The notes under the pieces are model-generated. The model saw only the letters and a list, made by a program, of their open reading frames with translations, had not been told where the DNA came from and ran no database searches. The position numbers were made by a program, and so were the translations under genes. 64,000 nt of DNA from an uncultured Desulfobacteraceae bacterium (GTDB lineage Bacteria > Desulfobacterota > Desulfobacteria > Desulfobacterales > UBA5852): contig CAJXSL010000002.1 of the NCBI GenBank assembly GCA_913060875.1, positions 62,001 to 126,000 of the forward strand. The letters are read 5' to 3'. Below are positions 33,451 through 62,200 of the stretch, piece by piece. Every line of letters starts with the position of its first letter. Positions within the stretch are counted from its first letter, which is position 1.

Positions 33451-34014
33451 ATGAAAATTTACACCGGGGGTGGGGACCGCGGCCGGACCAGCCTGTTCAG
33501 CGGCGAGCGTATTGCCAAAGACGACGCACGGGTGGAAGCTTACGGCGATGTGGATGAGTTGAATTCTCTCCTGGGTGCTCTCATCGCCGCGCTGCCCGAA
33601 GACTGCGACGACAGGATCCGGGAACTCCAGCAGATCCAGGGGGATCTTTTCCGTGTGGGCGCCTGCCTGGCCACCTCCGGAGACGATCCCTCCTTTGAAA
33701 CCACCCGGGATCTGCCCCTGGAAAGCGCGCGTTTCCTGGAAGAAGCCATCGATCGAATGGACGACCAACTGCCCCGGCTGAACCGTTTCATCCTGCCGGG
33801 AGGGCATCCGGCCGCCTGCTGGAGCCATGTGGCGCGTTGCGTCTGCCGGCGCGCCGAACGCCATGCCGTCCGGATCGTCCGTCAATCCGCCGCCGACAGC
33901 CAGCCGTATACCGGAACCCTGACCTATCTGAACCGGCTTTCCGATTATCTCTTCGTGCTGGCCCGTTTTTGCAATCAGGCCACCCACACATCCGATATCT
34001 CCTGGACCCCCTGA
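33451..34014 (+). CDS. ATP:cob(I)alamin adenosyltransferase, PduO type
   Basis: The 187-residue PduO-type enzyme adds the adenosyl group of ATP to cob(I)alamin to make coenzyme B12. Family motifs are MKIYTGGGDRGRTSLFSG (ATP loop), VEAYGDVDELNSLLG, RFILPGGHPAACWSHVARCV and YLNRLSDYLFVLAR. A Shine-Dalgarno sequence AAAGG precedes the ATG. It ends with TGATG, overlapping the flavin reductase start by one base. In frame upstream (about 33285-33450) a hydrophobic stretch can be read, but the family starts at MKIYTGGG. It provides adenosylcobalamin for users such as a CarH-like regulator. Confidence 0.92.
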   Translation: MKIYTGGGDRGRTSLFSGERIAKDDARVEAYGDVDELNSLLGALIAALPEDCDDRIRELQQIQGDLFRVGACLATSGDDPSFETTRDLPLESARFLEEAIDRMDDQLPRLNRFILPGGHPAACWSHVARCVCRRAERHAVRIVRQSAADSQPYTGTLTYLNRLSDYLFVLARFCNQATHTSDISWTP

Positions 34015-53276: not shown

Positions 53277-53510
53277 CTATTGGGCATCGTCCAATTGCTT
53301 GAGGCGATCCGCCTGCTGGGTCTGAATCTGTTTAAGATCTTCTTTCATCGCCTTCATCTGGTCGACATGCTTCTTTCCGGCCAGTTCTTCAACCGTATCG
53401 TCCACCTGGCTTCTTGTTTCGGTGCCCTCGCACCCCGTGGTCATAAGAAAGGCCGAAAACAGGATCCCAGTAAAAACGAATGCCCCTATACCATGGCGCC
53501 ATCTCTTCAT
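53277..53510 (-). CDS. Small lipoprotein, 77 residues
   Basis: The protein has a signal peptide with lipobox LMTTGC (Cys about residue 27). It is followed by an acidic region and a coiled coil (KKHVDQMKAMKEDLKQIQTQ). The start at 53510 has GAGGG upstream. The size and heptads recall Lpp- or TraN-like small lipoproteins that bind the wall, but homology is not clear. It lies 38 bases upstream of the 114-aa gene on the same strand. Confidence 0.72.
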   Translation of the reverse strand: MKRWRHGIGAFVFTGILFSAFLMTTGCEGTETRSQVDDTVEELAGKKHVDQMKAMKEDLKQIQTQQADRLKQLDDAQ

Positions 53511-53647
53511 AGTACCCTCTTGGAGGTTCCTCCCGCAGAGCGGGAAGCCCCAGGCAGCCCCTCGGAAGGGACTTGAAAATGGTTTTAGGCTTTGGTTTTG
53601 GTTTTCCCATTGTCCCGCGCCGAGCATCGGCGGGGCGGACGGGAAAA

Positions 53648-53708
53648 AGCGCGCGGACTGTCTGAGCCCGCCTTAGCCAAAGCGAAGGCGGGTGAGTTTC
53701 CGCGCGCT
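53648..53708. repeat. Nested inverted repeat
   Basis: AGCGCGCGGA (53648-53657) pairs with TCCGCGCGCT (53699-53708), and inside it CCCGCCTT (53667-53674) pairs with AAGGCGGG (53685-53692). A folded RNA or cruciform is possible. Confidence 0.65.
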
Positions 53709-53766
53709 CCGGCCGCACCGACGACGCGCAGGGTTAAGCGGGACACGGGCGTCTTCTTTTGCTTCG

Positions 53767-53788
53767 TTTTCTTCCACGTGGAAGAAAA
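53767..53788. repeat. Perfect 22-base palindrome
   Basis: TTTTCTTCCAC is followed at once by its reverse complement GTGGAAGAAAA. It is a perfect two-fold site with CACGTG at the centre. It may be an operator or the end of a mobile-like element. Confidence 0.6.
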
Positions 53789-53917
53789 TGAAGAAACAAT
53801 TTCAAAATAGCACACCAGATCGGTTGAGACTTTCGGGGTCCTTTACCAGAGGTGTAGGGTTTAAATCGAAAAAGTTATTTTATTCCTCTGCCAACGTACA
53901 AGAAAGGTCGGCTCCGG

Positions 53918-54139
53918 TCAATCCGGATGCGGCCAGGGGCTGTCATCGCTTGCTTCGGCAAAATAGCAAAAACGGTTCCATTCGAATTCGCGTTTTGAAA
54001 TGGGGCAACGCAGTTTGACCTTGCGATCGCTTACCCCGATGACTTCCCAGTCCCCATGGCGGGGCCCCGCCTCGATGTAGATCTTCTGCCCGACCTCAAA
54101 CGGATAAGGGCGAAAAATGACGATGGTCTCTTTTCCCAT
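53918..54139 (-). CDS. Hypothetical protein, 73 residues
   Basis: The small soluble protein is probably a beta-barrel: GKETIVIFRPYPFEVGQKIY, then AGPRHGDWEVIGVSDRKVKL. CPISKREFEWNRFCYF has two Cys. The start at 54139 has AAGGAGG at ideal spacing; a start further upstream is less likely. Function is unknown. Confidence 0.68.
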   Translation of the reverse strand: MGKETIVIFRPYPFEVGQKIYIEAGPRHGDWEVIGVSDRKVKLRCPISKREFEWNRFCYFAEASDDSPWPHPD

Positions 54140-54190
54140 GATGCCTCCTTGATGGCGCATTGTCCGATGCAACCGGTATAGGGCAAATGA

Positions 54191-55192
54191 TTATACCAGC
54201 TCCGGTGGGGGTTCGTACAGACCTGTCACCCATCGATCGGGAAAGGCTTGGATGCCTCCATCAGCGCCAAAAAAGGCGCCCAGCAAGGCCCCCCGATGCG
54301 CATTGTCCCCGCCCAAATGGGCATTGGCGATCATACCCGTTGCGGGGTCGTGCGCATATTTCCAGGCCAGGTATATCACGGCCGGCAAGGCATCTTCGAC
54401 ATAGCAGGCGGGGCTTAAGTGACGGCCGATCACGATGGCGTCCGGAAACTTTTGCCATTGCCGAAACGGGTGACCGTAGTAGGGGCTACGCTGGGATATC
54501 ATTCCCTCTTCCAGCACATCGCGCAGGGCTTGTCCGCCTATCACCCTTAGGAGGATTTCAATAACCACAGCGGCGGCCGAAGACATGCGCTCGCCGCGGT
54601 GGGTCAGGTTCAAATGCACCTGAGCCTGGGTCGATGCCAGGGATAAATCCTCGCGGTAGAAGGCAACCAAGGGTACAATTCCAACCAGCCCACCGATGTG
54701 TTTTTCCGGGACCCCGCAGCGATGCGGCGGCAGCCCCCCGGCCAACCGGGTGAAAAAATGGCGGTGATACTCCTCGACATAGGTATCGCGGTGGTTTCCC
54801 GGTGTTGTCATGAACGCGATGTAGCGCGCCAGGAAGTCTTCGGCATCGTATCCATTACCATGCCGCAAAGAGTTGATTAACAATCGCGCACACTGGAGAT
54901 TGAGCGTGTTTTCACCAGCGGCCAGAAATTGATGGTAGTGGATGCCCCGCTGCCCCCAGAAAGGTCGCTGGTCGTGCAGGATATCATAGCCGGCTCCCGG
55001 GGAAATGAATTGAGATCGCCAGAGGATGCTATCCGGGTGGGGATTGTGTGGTGCCAGATAGTCGCGGATTGTTCCGTAGTCCCGCTGCAGGGCATTACGA
55101 TCGTAGTACCAATGGACCGGCATGGATAGGGCGTCCCCGATAAAAAGCCCCCACAGCGCCCCGTGCGCGCGAATGTCAGGGGAGCCATTCAT
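54191..55192 (-). CDS. ADP-ribosylglycohydrolase family protein
   Basis: The 333-residue helical protein matches the ARH/DraG family that removes ADP-ribose from proteins or related substrates. The N-terminal part is GALWGLFIGDALSMPVHWYY, with GDAL at the first metal site. The C-terminal GGDNAHRGALLGAFFGA has the second acidic site, with Asp and Asn as Mg2+ ligands. The region between is unusual in having SRSP-like loops. It overlaps the CarH-like regulator gene by four bases (ATGA), so the two are translationally coupled. A role in reversing ADP-ribosylation under that regulator is inference. Confidence 0.88.
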   Translation of the reverse strand: MNGSPDIRAHGALWGLFIGDALSMPVHWYYDRNALQRDYGTIRDYLAPHNPHPDSILWRSQFISPGAGYDILHDQRPFWGQRGIHYHQFLAAGENTLNLQCARLLINSLRHGNGYDAEDFLARYIAFMTTPGNHRDTYVEEYHRHFFTRLAGGLPPHRCGVPEKHIGGLVGIVPLVAFYREDLSLASTQAQVHLNLTHRGERMSSAAAVVIEILLRVIGGQALRDVLEEGMISQRSPYYGHPFRQWQKFPDAIVIGRHLSPACYVEDALPAVIYLAWKYAHDPATGMIANAHLGGDNAHRGALLGAFFGADGGIQAFPDRWVTGLYEPPPELV

Positions 55193-56139
55193 GTTTCCTG
55201 CTCCGGCCGCATCGGTATTTCACCGACCAGGGCCACGTGAAAGGTCTCGAGGGTTTCACACCAGTGCAACCCCATCTCGCTTAAAGCAAAACGCAGTTCA
55301 GGCGGTGCCTGGCCACCGGCATAGAGGGACAGGTCTGCGGATAGAAGGCGTCTCAAATTTAGGCATTCCCTCCTCAGCTGTTCGCCGTTGGTGGTGCCAA
55401 CCAGACTGATGGCCACGGCCCGGGCACAATTGTACACAGCAGCCGCCGCGATTTCTTCGGCCGGTAAATTCGATCCGAGGTAGAGCGGCTGCCATCCGGC
55501 ATCGGAGGCGGTCAGGGCCACAGCAAGAGCGCCCAGGTCATGACGCTGGCCACTGGGGGTCGCAATGATGGCGGTGTCGCCGGCTTCCCGATTTTCGGCA
55601 TCGCGCAGTAATCCGCCCAGAAATGTCTGGATAACGGCACTGGCCATATGTTCATGGGCAATTCGAAGTGTGCCGGTTACCCAGGCGTCACCGACTTTAC
55701 CCAACAAAGGCACAATGATGCCTTCGATCACACGACGGCGGGAAAAATGCACCAGAGACTGCTGTAAGGTGCGTTCGAGCAGTCTGGTATCGAACCCGGT
55801 GATGGCATGGAATCCCAAGCGGACATAATCCTCCTCGTCAATTGCGTCCAGGCCGGATGCCCGGGATGGGCGGGGAGATACCGCCAAACGCTGGGGATCG
55901 GCAAGTTCGACCAAATCCTCGAGAGACAGGCGGGCGACCTTGGCGATGCGATGCCCGCTTTCGACCGCCCGGCGAAGAAGCTGCAAGCGCTGGATATCCA
56001 GATCGGAAAAGATCCGCCGGCGGCTCGTCGTACGCGCCGGCATTACCGCCATGTAACGTCGTTCCCAGGCGCGAATCCGATGCGGACTCAATCCGGTGCA
56101 CCGGGAGACGTATTGGATTTCATGGGTTTTAGTTTCCAT
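55189..56139 (-). CDS. MerR-type regulator with cobalamin-binding domain (CarH/LitR-like)
   Basis: The 316-residue protein has an N-terminal MerR helix-turn-helix (about 8-75: YVSRCTGLSPHRIRAWERRY). A helical bundle and a B12-binding Rossmann domain (about 185-300) follow. It keeps the CarH signature W-x9-E-H exactly (W153, E163, H164). H200 in SGQRHDLGA matches the lower axial His ligand, and the loop LYLGSNLPAEEI is typical. CarH binds adenosylcobalamin, represses in the dark and lets go in light. The protein is therefore a candidate B12 photoreceptor or B12 sensor. It is divergent from cydAB and coupled to an ADP-ribosylglycohydrolase. Confidence 0.9.
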   Translation of the reverse strand: METKTHEIQYVSRCTGLSPHRIRAWERRYMAVMPARTTSRRRIFSDLDIQRLQLLRRAVESGHRIAKVARLSLEDLVELADPQRLAVSPRPSRASGLDAIDEEDYVRLGFHAITGFDTRLLERTLQQSLVHFSRRRVIEGIIVPLLGKVGDAWVTGTLRIAHEHMASAVIQTFLGGLLRDAENREAGDTAIIATPSGQRHDLGALAVALTASDAGWQPLYLGSNLPAEEIAAAAVYNCARAVAISLVGTTNGEQLRRECLNLRRLLSADLSLYAGGQAPPELRFALSEMGLHWCETLETFHVALVGEIPMRPEQET

Positions 56140-56161
56140 TCTGAAATGATGGCACGCTGTC

Positions 56162-56192
56162 TTGACATTGTCAAATGTTTGTATAGCATTTG
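56162..56192. promoter_or_regulatory. Candidate CarH-type operator in the regulator/cyd gap
   Basis: TTGACATTGTCAA (56162-56174) is a perfect 6+1+6 palindrome, and CAAATG (56172-56177) with CATTTG (56187-56192) forms a second one. It lies 23 bases before the regulator start. The TTGACA and ACAAA units resemble the operators of CarH/LitR proteins. Overlap with promoter elements for the regulator fits autorepression. Confidence 0.5.
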
Positions 56193-56433
56193 TCTAATTC
56201 TAAGACCAGCCAACGCACACGGACGACGGCGATGACAAACGACAACAACATATCGGGACAGGGCGGCATGCGAAATATTCTAAGAACGACTGCCCGCTGG
56301 GAACAACAAACCGTTGGCCAGCTGCAGGCAGCATACTGGTAGACTGGGTTGCCATCCGGACGGCCGGCATACCCAAACAGGCTTTCCGATCCAGAAAATA
56401 CACCTGCTGCCGATAACACGATGAGGCGATACC

Positions 56434-57837
56434 ATGTTCGATACACTCGATCCAATTCTTATGGCCCGCATCCAGTTTGCTTTCACCATATCTTTCCATA
56501 TTATTTTTCCGGCCTTCACCATTGGTCTGGCCAGCTGGCTGGCCGTTCTGGAATGGCGCTGGCTCAAAACCGGCAATGCGATCTACGCCGAAATCTACCG
56601 CATGTGGGTCAAGATCTTTGCGGTGGCTTTCGGAATGGGTGTGGTGTCCGGGGTTGTCATGTCCTTCCAGTTCGGCACGAACTGGTCGGTTTTTTCCGAT
56701 AAAGCCGGCAACGTCATGGGACCACTCCTGGGCTATGAGGTGCTGACGGCCTTCTTCCTGGAGGCGTCCTTTTTGGGCGTTATGCTGTTCGGCTGGAACC
56801 GCGTCAGCCCCAGGATGCATTTTGCCTCGACGGTAATTGTTGCCCTGGGAACCATCATCTCCGCGTTCTGGATCCTTTCGGCCAACAGCTGGATGCAGAC
56901 CCCCCAGGGTTTTCGCGTGGGCGCCGATGGCCTGCTCTACCCCACCGACTGGCTGGCGATCGTATTCAACCCTTCCTTCCCGTTTCGTTTTACGCACATG
57001 ATTATCGCCGCCTATTTGACCACGGCCTTTGTGGTGGCAGGGATCGGCGCTTTTTACCTTTTCCGTCGGCGCCACGTCCGCCATGCCCGCGTCATGGTGG
57101 GCATGGCCATGATCATGGCTGTTTTTGTGGCACCGACCCAATTGCTCGTGGGCGACCTGCACGGCCTCAATACCCTGGAACACCAACCGGCCAAGGTGGC
57201 GGCCATGGAGGGGCTGTGGGAAACACAGCGCGGCGCACCGCTGGTCCTTTTCGGCTGGCCCGACCAGGAGCGCCAGGAAACGCGCTTTGCCCTGGAGATC
57301 CCCAAGCTCTCCAGCCTGATTCTGACCCACGATCTCGACGGCGAGGTCAAAGGCCTCAAGGAATGGCCCCGGGACGAGCAGCCCCCCGTGGCCTGGGTGT
57401 TCTGGTCGTTTCGGATCATGGTGGGCATCGGCATGCTGATGATCCTGACCGGCCTGATGGCCGCCGTGCTGTTTCTTCGCAAGCGCCTATTCGACACACG
57501 CTGGTTCCAGTATTGGTGCATGGCCCTCACCCCTTCCGGTTTCGTGGCCGTCCTGGCCGGCTGGTTCGTGACCGAAATCGGCCGACAACCCTGGATCATT
57601 TACAACGTGATGCGAACAGCCGAAGCCGCTTCGCCGGTCGGGGCGCAGCCCATCGCATTGTCCCTGGCGGCGTTTGTGGTCACCTACGCCGTGGTGTTCG
57701 GCGCCGGAATCTACTATATCGGACGCCTGATCGCCAAAGGACCCGGCGACCTTGAAGAAGCCTACGGCGCGCACGGTGTCAAGCGGCCGCCGCTGGTTGC
57801 ACCCCAGGTCGCCGACGAAGGAGGATCACATGTTTAG
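56434..57837 (+). CDS. cydA: Cytochrome bd-type ubiquinol oxidase subunit I
   Basis: The 467-residue membrane protein has about nine helices. The haem ligands can be placed: His in FAFTISFHIIFPAFTIG, the GEFMGLL-equivalent region EVLTAFFLEASFLGVMLFGW, and the Met/His region in the fifth to seventh helices. The quinol loop is short, as in the cyanide-insensitive CioA subgroup. It reduces O2 to water with quinol at high affinity. The stop overlaps cydB by eight bases. In an anaerobe it would serve oxygen defence or microaerobic respiration. Confidence 0.95.
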   Translation: MFDTLDPILMARIQFAFTISFHIIFPAFTIGLASWLAVLEWRWLKTGNAIYAEIYRMWVKIFAVAFGMGVVSGVVMSFQFGTNWSVFSDKAGNVMGPLLGYEVLTAFFLEASFLGVMLFGWNRVSPRMHFASTVIVALGTIISAFWILSANSWMQTPQGFRVGADGLLYPTDWLAIVFNPSFPFRFTHMIIAAYLTTAFVVAGIGAFYLFRRRHVRHARVMVGMAMIMAVFVAPTQLLVGDLHGLNTLEHQPAKVAAMEGLWETQRGAPLVLFGWPDQERQETRFALEIPKLSSLILTHDLDGEVKGLKEWPRDEQPPVAWVFWSFRIMVGIGMLMILTGLMAAVLFLRKRLFDTRWFQYWCMALTPSGFVAVLAGWFVTEIGRQPWIIYNVMRTAEAASPVGAQPIALSLAAFVVTYAVVFGAGIYYIGRLIAKGPGDLEEAYGAHGVKRPPLVAPQVADEGGSHV

Positions 57838-58846
57838 CCTGGAAGCCTTTATCGATCTGCCCATGATCTGGTACGGCCTGATCATCACGGCCGTCATGCT
57901 CTATGTGATTCTCGACGGTTTCGACCTCGGTGTGGGCATTCTCTTTCCCTTCGCCCCCTCGGAAAAGTGCCGGGACCGAATGATGAATTCCATCGCGCCT
58001 TTCTGGGACGGCAACGAAACCTGGCTGGTGCTGGGCGGCGGCGGCCTGTTTGCGGCCTTTCCGCTGGCTTATGCCATCCTGATGCCGGCCCTCTATATCC
58101 CGGTCACACTCATGCTGCTGGGATTGATCTTCAGGGGCGTCGCCTTCGAGTTTCGCTTCAAGGCCCGGAAGTCCCGCCGGATTTGGGACTACAGCTTTCA
58201 CGGTGGCTCTCTCCTGGCCACGGTAATGCAAGGCATGATCCTGGGCGCATTGGTGCAAGGCGTAACCGTTTCAGGACGCAGTTTTGCCGGCGGGACGTTC
58301 GATTGGATCAATGCCTACAGCGTGATGACGGGTGTGGCCCTGGTGTTCGGCTATGCCCTGCTGGGCAGTACCTGGCTGGTGATGAAAACCGATGGGATTA
58401 CCCAGTCCTGGGCGCGCCGGAGCGCTTCTTATGTCCTGGGTTACGTGGGCTTGTTCATTGCGGTCGTGAGCATCAGCATGCCCCTGATGAAAGATACGAT
58501 ACGAGGCTTGTGGTTTAGCCTGCCGAATTTCTTCTACCTGTTGCCGGTGCCGTTGATGACGGCATTGCTTTTCATCCTGATCTGGCGGGATCTCCACATC
58601 GGCCGCGAATACCGGCCGTTCTTCATGAGTATCGGCATTTTTCTGTTGGGCTACCTCGGTCTGGGGATCAGCCTGTGGCCCTGGATCGTGCCCCACGCCG
58701 TCAGTTTTCGCCAGGCGGCCGCGGCGCCGGAGTCCCAGTCGCTGCTGCTGGTGGGCACAGCGGTAATGCTGCCGGTGGTGCTCGCCTACACCGCCTATTG
58801 CTACTACGTCTTCCGGGGGAAAGCGTCGCATGAATCGGGTTACTGA
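57830..58846 (+). CDS. cydB: Cytochrome bd-type ubiquinol oxidase subunit II
   Basis: The 338-residue membrane protein has eight to nine helices. VILDGFDLGVGILFPF and FWDGNETWLVLGGGGLFAAF are the canonical CydB motifs, followed by LIFRGVAFEFRFKA. It pairs with CydA. The start at 57830 follows GAAGGAGG and overlaps cydA by eight bases. The DUF2474 gene starts 17 bases before its end, so the three are co-translated. Confidence 0.95.
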   Translation: MFSLEAFIDLPMIWYGLIITAVMLYVILDGFDLGVGILFPFAPSEKCRDRMMNSIAPFWDGNETWLVLGGGGLFAAFPLAYAILMPALYIPVTLMLLGLIFRGVAFEFRFKARKSRRIWDYSFHGGSLLATVMQGMILGALVQGVTVSGRSFAGGTFDWINAYSVMTGVALVFGYALLGSTWLVMKTDGITQSWARRSASYVLGYVGLFIAVVSISMPLMKDTIRGLWFSLPNFFYLLPVPLMTALLFILIWRDLHIGREYRPFFMSIGIFLLGYLGLGISLWPWIVPHAVSFRQAAAAPESQSLLLVGTAVMLPVVLAYTAYCYYVFRGKASHESGY

Positions 58847-58949
58847 AAAAAAACGTCAATGGCTGTGGTTCGCGGCGCTGTGGTGCGGCGGACTGGCCGC
58901 TACCGCAATCGTGTCCTATGTCTTTCGCTGGATTGTGTTCAACATGTAA
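58830..58949 (+). CDS. DUF2474-type small subunit of cytochrome bd (CydX-like)
   Basis: The 39-residue single-helix protein starts MNRVTEKKRQWLWFAALWCG and ends FRWIVFNM. It has a basic N-terminus and one membrane helix (about 11-35). DUF2474 peptides are known next to CIO-type cydAB genes, in the place of CydX. It begins 17 bases inside cydB. It was found by reading the sequence after cydB. Confidence 0.82.
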   Translation: MNRVTEKKRQWLWFAALWCGGLAATAIVSYVFRWIVFNM

Positions 58950-58992
58950 CCAGGGTCGCGCTCCGTGCGGGCCTTGTTGAAAGGAGTCGGAT

Positions 58993-59160
58993 ATGAGTGA
59001 CGATAAAGAAAAAACACTTTGCGCCTTGCAGGAAGAGGGTTTTATTGAATCCAACCCCGAGGTCTTCGTCAAACTGATCCAGCCCGCGCGTTTCTATTGC
59101 GGAAACTGCGGACGATCGGCTGTGGCGGAGAAAAATCTATGTAATCCGCAACCGCTATAA
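58993..59160 (+). CDS. Small zinc-ribbon-like protein, 55 residues
   Basis: The 55-residue soluble protein has a helical acidic start (MSDDKEKTLCALQEEGFIES) and a Cys cluster CGNCGRSAVAEKNLC near residues 36-50. AAGGAGTCGG precedes the start. It is 43 bases after the DUF2474 gene, so it is probably co-transcribed. The CxxC-x9-C pattern looks like a zinc or iron site. I recall similar short proteins in Desulfobacterota, without a name or function. Confidence 0.72.
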   Translation: MSDDKEKTLCALQEEGFIESNPEVFVKLIQPARFYCGNCGRSAVAEKNLCNPQPL

Positions 59161-59169
59161 CCACCATTC

Positions 59170-59195
59170 GGGATGGGGTTACCCAACCCCATCCC
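59170..59195. terminator. Hairpin terminator 1 between cyd operon and carB
   Basis: GGGATGGGGTT (59170-59180) and AACCCCATCCC (59185-59195) form a perfect 11-bp stem with a four-base loop ACCC, ten bases after the zinc-ribbon gene stop. Confidence 0.7.
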
Positions 59196-59204
59196 ATCGC
59201 AAAT

Positions 59205-59241
59205 AAGCGAGGCCGGCACCCCATGGTTGCCGGCCTCGCTT
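59205..59241. terminator. Hairpin terminator 2 between cyd operon and carB
   Basis: AAGCGAGGCCGGCA (59205-59218) and TGCCGGCCTCGCTT (59228-59241) form a perfect 14-bp stem with a nine-base loop. With hairpin 1 it makes a tandem terminator that could act from both sides, since carB converges on it. Confidence 0.75.
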
Positions 59242-59274
59242 GGTTGACGACTCTGAGTTACACCACCTGGAGCA

Positions 59275-62200
59275 TCATACAATCGCTTCGTGATACGCTT
59301 GCAGCGATTTGACCTGCGGCGCCCCTTCCCGGCGCGCGGCAATGCCCTTGGCCGCCGCGATGGCGGCCGCCGTGGTGGTGATGTAGGGAATTTTGTATCG
59401 AATGGCGGCCTTGCGCACCTCGGAGTTGTCTTCCGCGCTGCGTTTGCCGCTGGGGGTATTCACCAGCAGTTGGACTTCACCGCTCTTGATGGCATCCACC
59501 AGGTTGGGCCGACCAAACCCCAGTTTGCGCACCGGAACGGTGTCGATACCGTTTTCCTTGAGGAATCGATAGGTCCCCTGGGTGGTCATGATGCGGAAGC
59601 CCATCTCCCGGAACAAGCGTACCGGTTCCAGAGCCGCGGACTTGTCCCGGTCGGCGATGGTAAACAGGACGGTGCCCTCGAAAGGCAGCGCGGTCTGGGT
59701 GGCCTCCTGGGATTTGAAGTAGGCGCGGCCGTAGGAATCCGAAAGGCCCAGGACTTCGCCCGTGGACCGCATCTCGGGTCCCAGGATGGGATCCACCTCA
59801 TGAAACATGTTGAAGGGAAACACCGCCTCCTTGACACCCCAGTGGGAAATGCCCCGCTGGCGGATTTCCAGGTCAGCCAGGCGCTTTCCGAGCATGATGT
59901 CGGTGGCCAGTTTGGCCATGGCCACATTGCAGACCTTGGACACCAGCGGCACGGTGCGCGATGCGCGGGGATTGGCCTCCAGGACATAGACGGTGTTGTC
60001 GTAGATGGCGTACTGGATATTCATCAATCCCACGACCTTCAGGGCCACAGCAATCTTGCGGGTATATTCGCTGATGGTTTCGATGTGTTTGGGGGCGATA
60101 CTGACCGGCGGGATGACGCAGGCGGAATCCCCGGAATGAATGCCGGCCAGCTCGATGTGCTCCATGACCGCCGGCACGAAGGCATCCGTTCCGTCGGCAA
60201 TGGCATCGGCTTCGGCCTCGATGGCATTGTCGAGAAATTTGTCGATCAAAATCGGTCGCTCGGGCGACAGGGCCACAGCGGCTTCGACATAGCGCGCCAG
60301 CATTTGGTCATCCCGGATGATCTCCATGCCGCGACCACCCAGCACATAGGAAGGCCGCACCATGAGGGGATAGCCGATCTCGGCGGCGATCTGACGCGCC
60401 TCGGCCAGGCTGCTGGCCATTCCCGAAGCCGGCTGGGGAATGCCCAACTCGCGCATGATCACCCGAAAGCGGTCCCGATCCTCCGCCAGATCAATGGTGT
60501 CCGGCAACGTCCCCAGGATATTCACACCCGCCCGGGCCAGCTCGGCGGCAATATTGAGGGGCGTCTGTCCGCCGAACTGGACCACGACGCCCTCGGGCTT
60601 TTCCTTGCCATAAATGCTCAGGACATCTTCAACCGTCAGGGGCTCGAAATAGAGCTTGTCGGAGGTGTCGTAGTCCGTCGAAACGGTTTCCGGGTTGCAG
60701 TTGACCATGATGGATTCGAAACCGGCTTCCCGGATGGCCATGGCCGCATGGACGCAGCAGTAATCGAACTCGATACCCTGCCCGATGCGGTTAGGCCCGC
60801 CCCCCAGCACCATGATCTTCCGGCGGCTGCTCACCGGCACCCGGTCCGGGGCGTTGTAGGTGGAGTAATAATAGGCGGCGTCATCGACACCGCTGACCGG
60901 CACCGGTTCCCAGGCCTCCTCGATACCGAGCCGTTGTCGTTGCGTGCGGATGTCAGATTCGGCAATGTTCAGCAAGCCGGCCAGATACCGATCGGCAAAG
61001 CCGTCCTGTTTGGCGCGGGCCAGCAGCTCGTCCGTAAGCTCCCCGCCACGGCAGGCCAGCACTTCTTCTTCCAGCTTCACCAGTTCCTGCATCTGCTCGA
61101 TAAACCAGGCTTTGATCCTGGTCAAATCGTGAAGCGTCTGAATATCAGCCCCTTTGCGCAAGGCCTCGTACATCTGGAACTGCCGCTCGCTGTTGGGGGT
61201 CCGGATCATGCGCAGCAGGTTTTCCAGGGACTGTTGGTTAAAATCCCGTGCAAATCCAAGCCCGTAGCGACCAATTTCCAGGCTCCGGATGGCTTTCTGG
61301 AAGGCCTCTTTGTAGTTGCGGCCCAAGCTCATGACCTCCCCCACGGCCCGCATCTGGGTGCCGAGCTCATCGCTGACCCCTTCAAATTTCTCGAAGGCCC
61401 ATCGGGCGAACTTGACCACCACGTATTCCCCGGACGGCGTATATTTCTCCAGGGTACCGTCCCGCCAGTAAGGGATCTCGTCCAGGGTCAGCCCACCGGC
61501 CAGCAGGGCCGATATGCGGGCGATGGGAAAGCCCGTGGCCTTGGAGGCCAGGGCCGAAGATCGCGAGGTGCGCGGGTTGATTTCGATGACCACCACACGG
61601 CCGGTGGCCGGATCGTGGGCAAACTGGATATTGGTGCCCCCGATGACTTCGATCGCCTCCACGATGGCGTAAGAATAGCGCTGGAGACGCTCCTGGAGTT
61701 CGGGGGCGATGGTCAGCATGGGCGCCGTGCAATAGCTGTCGCCCGTATGGACCCCCATGGGATCCACGTTTTCAATGAAGCAGACCGTGATGATCTGGTT
61801 TTTGGCATCCCGCACCACCTCGAGTTCCAGTTCTTCCCAGCCGAGAACGGATTCTTCCACCAGCACCTGGTTGACCCGGCTGGCCGCCAGCCCGCGGGCC
61901 GTGACCGTACGCAGCTCTTCGAGGTTGTACACCAGGCCGCCTCCGGTGCCGCCCATGGTGTAGGCCGGCCGGATCACCACCGGAAAGCCCAATTCTTCTG
62001 CCACACGCTCGGCATCCGCCACGGTGGTGACAATTTCGCTGGCCGCCATCTCGATCCCCAGACGATCCATGGTTTCTTTGAAAACCAGACGATCTTCCCC
62101 CCGCTCGATGGTGTCCACGTTGACGCCGATGAGGCTTACCCCATACTGGTCGAGCACCCCGAGCTGATGCAGTTCCGAGGACAGATTCAATCCGCTCTGC

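Follow-up and report, generated by a model that had tools for sequence, protein, structure and literature searches.

A CarH-like regulator, its predicted operator and a putative link to a divergent cytochrome bd oxidase in an uncultured Desulfobacteraceae bacterium

In a 64,000-nucleotide stretch of contig CAJXSL010000002.1 from an uncultured Desulfobacteraceae bacterium (hereafter, the window), a gene for a MerR-type regulator with a cobalamin-binding domain of the CarH/LitR kind forms an operon with an ADP-ribosylglycohydrolase-family gene (ADPRG) and lies divergent from cydAB, the genes for a cytochrome bd oxidase. We propose, with a probability of roughly 0.62, that the regulator is an adenosylcobalamin (AdoCbl)-binding, CarH-like repressor of its own operon and of cydAB that is released by light or by loss of AdoCbl. 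The computed part of this proposal is strong: it comprises the protein family, four light-response motifs, a CarH-type operator with a conserved place, and a gene order found in three genomes. From these we infer AdoCbl binding, light as the signal and direct control of cydAB, where the case for light draws on the motif signature together with the gene neighbors.

The regulator carries the complete light-response signature

All three domains of the regulator, MerR_1 (PF13411), B12-binding_2 (PF02607) and B12-binding (PF02310), scored above their cut-offs, and its nearest solved structures by sequence were those of Thermus LitR/CarH (E 8e-23 and 1e-22). An AlphaFold model built from 15 sequences (pLDDT 86.4) matched CarH chains over ~200 residues at a Z score of ~23 (23.2 to 5c8d), a level at which photocobilins tie, and matched the CtMerR structure 8jbs at Z 22.2; in a Foldseek search, full-length CarH took the top rank. 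The original prediction, an earlier reading of the window from its letters, had named a W-x9-EH signature (W153, E163, H164) and an axial histidine (H200), and all of these residues are found at the positions claimed. They form part of the published light-response signature of CarH-type proteins, GxxW, EH, GxxH and GxxxP (PMC11796333), which is complete in the regulator (G150/W153, E163/H164, G197/H200 and G222/P226).

None of the cobalamin-contact motifs listed in PMC11796333 is missing from the protein, which argues against a reading in which array and gene order persist by ancestry or chance while the protein, like the B12-independent CarA, no longer binds cobalamin. What speaks for such a loss is that two related regulators (L038 and L160), which resemble CarA in lacking the Trp, the EH pair and the axial His, still have tandem repeats upstream; for the window protein we consider it very unlikely.

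Two further groups of relatives depart from the signature. Ten regulators from the same order (L032, L033, L036, L037, L096, L098, L161, L165, L167 and L169) carry Cys at the axial His position, form a single tree branch (support 93/87) and in 0 of 10 cases have a CarH-type array at their start; they may represent a thiolate-ligated or a B12-free variant. Related regulators also occur in one conserved cluster at 19 Gammaproteobacteria-type loci, many of them from Litoricola (L042-L049, L051-L056, L058-L060, L063 and L064), with a small gene directly 3' of the regulator in 18 of the 19 and Thr replacing the signature Trp in the two that were placed in the tree.

A CarH-type repeat array overlaps the predicted promoter of the regulator operon

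Published CarH sites consist of tandem 11-bp repeats, nnnnTnnACAn, that overlap the -35 or -10 box, with three copies in Thermus and, in Bacillus, either four or three together with a pseudo-repeat (PMC9304148). Upstream of the regulator, on the minus strand at 56200-56157, we found four tandem 11-bp units fitting this pattern in the arrangement DR-DR-DR-dr, three full repeats followed by a pseudo-repeat (Table 1). The exact triple array occurs at two places in the 5.88-Mb genome, namely, at the regulator promoter and at the promoter of the sole close paralogue (contig 14), as compared to none for a reversed-pattern control, and over 20 genomes we counted 22 matches versus 7 for the reversed control. 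The same pattern recovers the carH operator of Thermus HB27 on plasmid pTT27, and when the 150 bases upstream of the regulator were shuffled 20,000 times with dinucleotides preserved, an exact triple repeat arose only once. As the triple pattern with two mismatches is not rare in the window (2 matches versus 1.9 expected), the claim of an array rests on the exact repeats. Allowing one mismatch yielded 18 matches in the genome, of which 3 lie at the two regulator promoters; the remaining 15 compare with 7 in the reversed control, and further regulon targets are neither shown nor excluded.

The position of the array is conserved among relatives. At a threshold of E 1e-20, 24 of 389 genomes of the order contain regulators of this type, with 36 matches in all. 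Within 150 bases upstream, a triple array was present for 9 of 31 regulator genes but for none of 332 other genes of the same loci, and two tandem repeats for 19 of 31 versus 5 of 332, where neighbors sharing the regulator gap were tallied separately (triple array at Lon in 6/9, CydA in 1/3 and FtsH in 1/6). Shuffling the 31 regulator upstream regions gave a mean of 0.005 with a triple.

The array and the promoter of the regulator operon are interlocked, with the -35 box inside DR3. At least two tandem repeats lie on the sense strand at 21 of the 36 regulator loci, and 20 of these 21 have an exact TTGACA in the last repeat and a best -10 box that ends 5 to 7 bases before an ATG. Since the spacer of 16 to 18 was picked for the best -10 box, the -10 is the weaker evidence; in a control without this choice, TTGACA preceded an in-frame ATG by the leaderless distance in 24 of 36 regulators versus 1 of 355 other genes. 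Given a -10 box six bases before the ATG and the recurrence of this layout across regulators, the regulator-ADPRG mRNA is predicted to be leaderless. A -10-like box likewise precedes the ATG of Thermus HB27 carH by 6 nucleotides, and its sequence suggests that this mRNA is leaderless too.

On the opposite strand, a promoter-like site directed toward cydA lies wholly within the predicted operator. The two opposed -35 boxes overlap in a palindrome, TTGACA-N-TGTCAA (TTGACATTGTCAA, 56162-56174), that the original prediction had singled out together with a CAAATG/CATTTG pair. The palindrome is real and its exact sequence occurs once in the window, but it is not the operator proper: it forms where DR3 meets dr4, and we rejected it as a separate operator and main feature, whereas its second role as the opposite -35 box is kept open. 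The CAAATG/CATTTG pair is present as well, as a fragment of the larger direct-repeat array. All three cyd-linked promoters retain the palindrome arms (with a minus-strand center base of A in the window, G in L039 and C in L023, the two other cyd-linked loci introduced below), and the arms are exact in 2 of 18 other array promoters, both Lon-linked (L027 and L030).

Gene order links the regulator to cydAB in three genomes

In the window, the regulator stop and the ADPRG start overlap by four bases (55189-55192), and 294 bases (56140-56433) separate the divergent regulator and cydA starts, both as originally predicted. The gene order is not unique to this genome (G000). A congener (G524; MAG130 contig, locus L039) keeps the entire order, down to the four-base overlap, as well as three flanking genes, and a genome of a different family (G033; locus L023) keeps the regulator/cydAB part with no ADPRG nearby. 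In a tree of 44 rows, the regulators of these three genomes group together as one clade (support 100/96). The window CydA is 88% identical to that of G524 and 78% to that of G033, as compared to 38% and 31% for the two other CydA proteins of its own genome. Repeats lie between regulator and cydA in all three cases, with three full repeats in G000 and G524 and two in G033, and the cydA-directed site has a counterpart in G524 (TTGACA-16-TAATAT). The order in two further genomes and the operator lying over the cydA-directed site thus back the originally suggested coupling of a CarH-type regulator to cydAB, and control of cydAB by the regulator is likely from these sequence features.

More widely, such a regulator was present in 13 of 146 genomes in an earlier draw of the order and, at the stricter threshold of 1e-40, in 2 of 395 genomes of a phylum draw in which the window genome itself was counted. 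Within the family, 5 of 6 genomes have a regulator, with the close type in G000 and G524 only. Among the 36 regulator loci, 3 are linked to cyd genes, 14 to Lon and/or FtsH with the same array, and 6 to ADPRG. The paralogue in the window genome faces away from FtsH; after it comes an EF-hand gene in convergent orientation, in front of which a double repeat lies.

A proposed switch and its alternatives

According to our proposal, the AdoCbl-bound regulator would oligomerize in the dark on the four 11-bp repeats and would thereby cover both the -35 box of its own promoter and the opposing cydA-directed site, keeping the regulator, ADPRG and the bd oxidase low. Green light, or loss of AdoCbl, would break the Co-C bond and take the oligomer off the DNA, upon which the leaderless regulator-ADPRG mRNA and cydAB would be made together. 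An anaerobe would in this way probably turn on an oxygen-removing oxidase in response to light, perhaps together with oxygen.

Several observations, on the DNA as well as on the protein, weigh against this proposal. Linkage to cyd genes is seen at only 3 of the 36 regulator loci, and just two genomes, both of one genus, have the full order. In G033, the cydA-side site has TTGACA with a poor -10 box, and no exact triple array is present. In the window, 233 bp separate the array from the cydA start, which leaves room for a different cydA promoter. That distance, the 294 bases between the two starts and the 33 loci without cyd linkage, where most relatives have other divergent genes, would all fit a regulator that governs its own operon only, with cydAB as a mere neighbor with an independent promoter. 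The whole gap, however, measures 111 bp in G524 and 105 bp in G033, so that any in-gap cydA promoter in these two genomes would lie at or over the array, and the high CydA identities and the single regulator clade likewise speak against this reading. We regard control of the own operon alone as rather unlikely.

Concerning the protein, the regulator scored 104 bits against the CarH equivalog model NF052513, below its cut-off of 400, while the positive control, Thermus HB27 CarH, reached 510; on sequence grounds it belongs to the CarH/LitR kind in the wider sense and is no equivalog of CarH. In favor of the proposal, arrays of two or more tandem repeats go with the axial His, being present at 20 of 23 regulators that have this residue versus 3 of 13 that lack it, but the association may be due to ancestry alone, with 10 of the 13 in one branch. 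Val154 occupies the position of Thermus CarH His132, where, among the 43 other tree rows, Thermus CarH is the only one with His. For Thermus CarH, O2 and His132 were found to be required for the final bis-His state and the break-up of the tetramer, with which an earlier report on H132A disagreed (PMC10442372). CtMerR, with Arg at this position, nevertheless converts from tetramer to monomer in light (PMC11796333), so that the missing histidine leaves room for a light response in the window regulator, whose photochemistry may differ from that of Thermus CarH.

The missing His132 equivalent also fits a regulator that senses the AdoCbl level or cobalamin/oxygen redox instead of light, the light sensitivity of AdoCbl being incidental in an anaerobe that possibly lives in the dark. 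Consistent with such sensing, O2 alters the fate of photolysed CarH (PMC10442372), and the host probably lives at least partly oxygen-free, given the presence of dsrA. In favor of light over this alternative, which we judge somewhat improbable, are the retention of all four light-signature motifs, the stress-like neighbors of the relatives (Lon, FtsH, M50 protease, flavin amine oxidase and universal stress protein) and a photolyase-family protein in the genome.

The gene content of the host is compatible with a light-responsive repressor. The genome contains dsrA above cut-off, three cydA genes, the photolyase-family protein and one PduO-type adenosyltransferase (33457-33969), its sole PF01923 match, which does lie in the window as originally noted, though ~22 kb from the regulator locus. 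Taken together, these genes point to a probable sulfate or sulfite reducer with the means of making AdoCbl and of coping with oxygen and light. As a tentative extension, and one we hold to be less probable than the switch itself, light could serve in mats or photic sediments as an early warning of oxygen. The photoproduct may need O2 to finish the switch; the dedicated bd oxidase, one of three, would burn the oxygen about to come from neighboring phototrophs, and the paralogue would derepress FtsH for damage repair.

The second gene encodes a noncanonical ADP-ribosylglycohydrolase-family protein

ADPRG matched PF03747 over the whole domain (168 bits versus a cut-off of 26.2), but reached only 37.8 bits against the DraG equivalog TIGR02662 (cut-off 337) and fell far below the Tri1 cut-off as well. 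In catalytic DraG/ARH enzymes, the acidic TDDT and GGD(T/A)D motifs provide the metal ligands, and both are absent from ADPRG. Where solved PF03747 members have Glu, TDDT and GGD(T/A)D, ADPRG has His27, TLNL (T96-L97-N98) and GGDN(A/V) (G295-D296-N297, hence the GGDN subfamily), and the named residues are invariant in 12 aligned relatives. With most metal-ligand motifs replaced, the usual ADP-ribosylhydrolase mechanism is doubtful. Of the original suggestion that the operon links the regulator to ADP-ribose removal, the operon coupling therefore stands, whereas removal of ADP-ribose by this protein is weakened to doubtful on its sequence and another activity is possible. A structure model from two sequences (pLDDT 46.5) was not used.

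The association with the regulator extends beyond the window. ADPRG lies within ~2.3 kb of the regulator at 6 of 36 loci, and the two genes co-occur in 8 genomes, with 13 and 14 of 146 genomes containing regulator and ADPRG, respectively (hypergeometric P 8e-7, kinship ignored; the 14 are a hand count at E 1e-40 or better, from 18 at 1e-20). At the genus level, the corresponding numbers are 8 and 11 of 103, with 6 in common (P 8e-6, kinship again ignored). No CarH-type array was found directly upstream of ADPRG genes in 16 upstream regions, and so ADPRG would be controlled only as a member of the operon. In L104 and L105, whose genomes have no regulator at E 1e-20, a GGDN-type ADPRG adjoins a DUF2878 gene and a gene with a cyclopropane-synthase-type C-terminal domain; in L104, where the domains were scanned, this neighbor has the CMAS-type domain only.

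Relation to known systems

The closest described counterpart, Thermus thermophilus CarH/LitR (5c8d and 3whp), shares with the regulator the MerR, B12-binding_2 and B12-binding domains, the four signature motifs, the tandem 11-bp repeats holding the -35 box, and a -10-like box six bases before the ATG. It differs in being only ~29% identical over the aligned parts, in having His132 where the regulator has Val, and in its neighbors, which are carotenoid genes and a photolyase instead of ADPRG and cydAB. CarH of Bacillus megaterium and of myxobacteria, likened here by operator description, shares the four tandem repeats, or three direct repeats and a pseudo-repeat in B. megaterium, over the -35/-10 boxes, but the targets described are carotenogenesis genes (PMC9304148). 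CtMerR of Chloracidobacterium thermophilum shares the light-signature motifs without His132 as well as the fold, yet is 24% identical to the regulator. The Lon/FtsH-linked regulators of the same order (34-43% identical) share the array and mostly the leaderless layout, and differ in lying divergent from Lon and/or FtsH instead of cydAB and in occupying separate tree branches.

The CarH literature used for this comparison concerns mainly carotenoid control. Our literature search, which had most subscription journals outside its scope, returned no paper joining CarH with cydA or with an ADP-ribosylglycohydrolase, and none that connects cytochrome bd with both CarH and LitR. The new element is the predicted output: an oxidase, or proteases in relatives, takes the place of the carotenoid genes, and does so in a lineage of sulfate reducers. 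If the proposal holds, B12-based light sensing would extend to respiration and protein quality control, an anaerobe could anticipate oxygen, and the noncanonical ADPRG subfamily would be a candidate member of the same response; the exact predicted operator sites are available for tests.

Other arrays and features of the locus

Arrays also occur at genes other than those discussed. Extra triple arrays precede EF-hand genes in G125, G088 and G145, with a sigma-70-family gene next in G125 and G088, and further triples precede a universal stress protein gene in G088 and lie divergent to an M50 protease gene in G145. In L021, L097, L133, L136 and L137, tandem CarH-type repeats recur ahead of a small EF-hand gene, and an EF-hand calcium-binding protein may be a common target of such arrays. 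A fusion gene with HMG-CoA reductase (an isoprenoid gene) in L133, ~150 bases from an array, was dropped as a target because that array is located past the 3' end of the fusion gene, ahead of the EF-hand gene. Triple matches away from regulators in G001, G110 and G525 look like chance. An exact triple near an APS-reductase beta-subunit gene, ~80-120 bases from its start (L135, ~591-740; genome G145), may be due to chance or may reflect a link to sulfate reduction.

Table 1. Genes, predicted operator repeats and promoter-like sites around the regulator, in window coordinates.
Feature	Position	Strand	Evidence or remark
Regulator, MerR-type with cobalamin-binding domain (CarH/LitR class-I-like), 316 aa	55189-56139	minus	PF13411, PF02607, PF02310
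ADP-ribosylglycohydrolase-family gene (GGDN subfamily), second gene of the regulator operon	54191-55192	minus	PF03747
Regulator-ADPRG promoter	56146-56174	minus	TTGACA (56174-56169), 17 nt, CATCAT (56151-56146), 6 nt, ATG
Predicted operator repeat DR1, GAATTAGACAA	56190-56200	minus	fits nnnnTnnACAn
Predicted operator repeat DR2, ATGCTATACAA	56179-56189	minus	
Predicted operator repeat DR3, ACATTTGACAA	56168-56178	minus	includes the regulator -35 box TTGACA
Operator pseudo-repeat dr4, TGTCAAGACAG	56157-56167	minus	ACA retained, T not
Promoter-like site toward cydA	56162-56189	plus	TTGACA (56162-56167), 16 nt, TAGCAT (56184-56189); 10/12 matches
cydA, cytochrome bd oxidase subunit I	56434-57837	plus	PF01654, 578 bits
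cydB, cytochrome bd oxidase subunit II	57830-58846	plus	PF02322, 318 bits; TIGR00203 above cut-off
DUF2474-like membrane peptide, 39 aa	58830-58949	plus	PF10617 below cut-off
55-aa protein with zinc-ribbon-like motif	58993-59160	plus	CxNCGRSA...NLCNP

A scan of 53500-59300 against Rfam at gathering scores gave no match. The cydA-cydB-DUF2474 series of the original prediction is confirmed by Pfam for cydA and cydB, while the match of the third gene is sub-threshold (E 0.01, 16.3 bits versus a cut-off of 26.6); its open reading frame is also readable 3' of cydB in L039 and L023. The zinc-ribbon-like protein, encoded 3' of the cyd genes and without a match in the Pfam search, is readable in L039 too.

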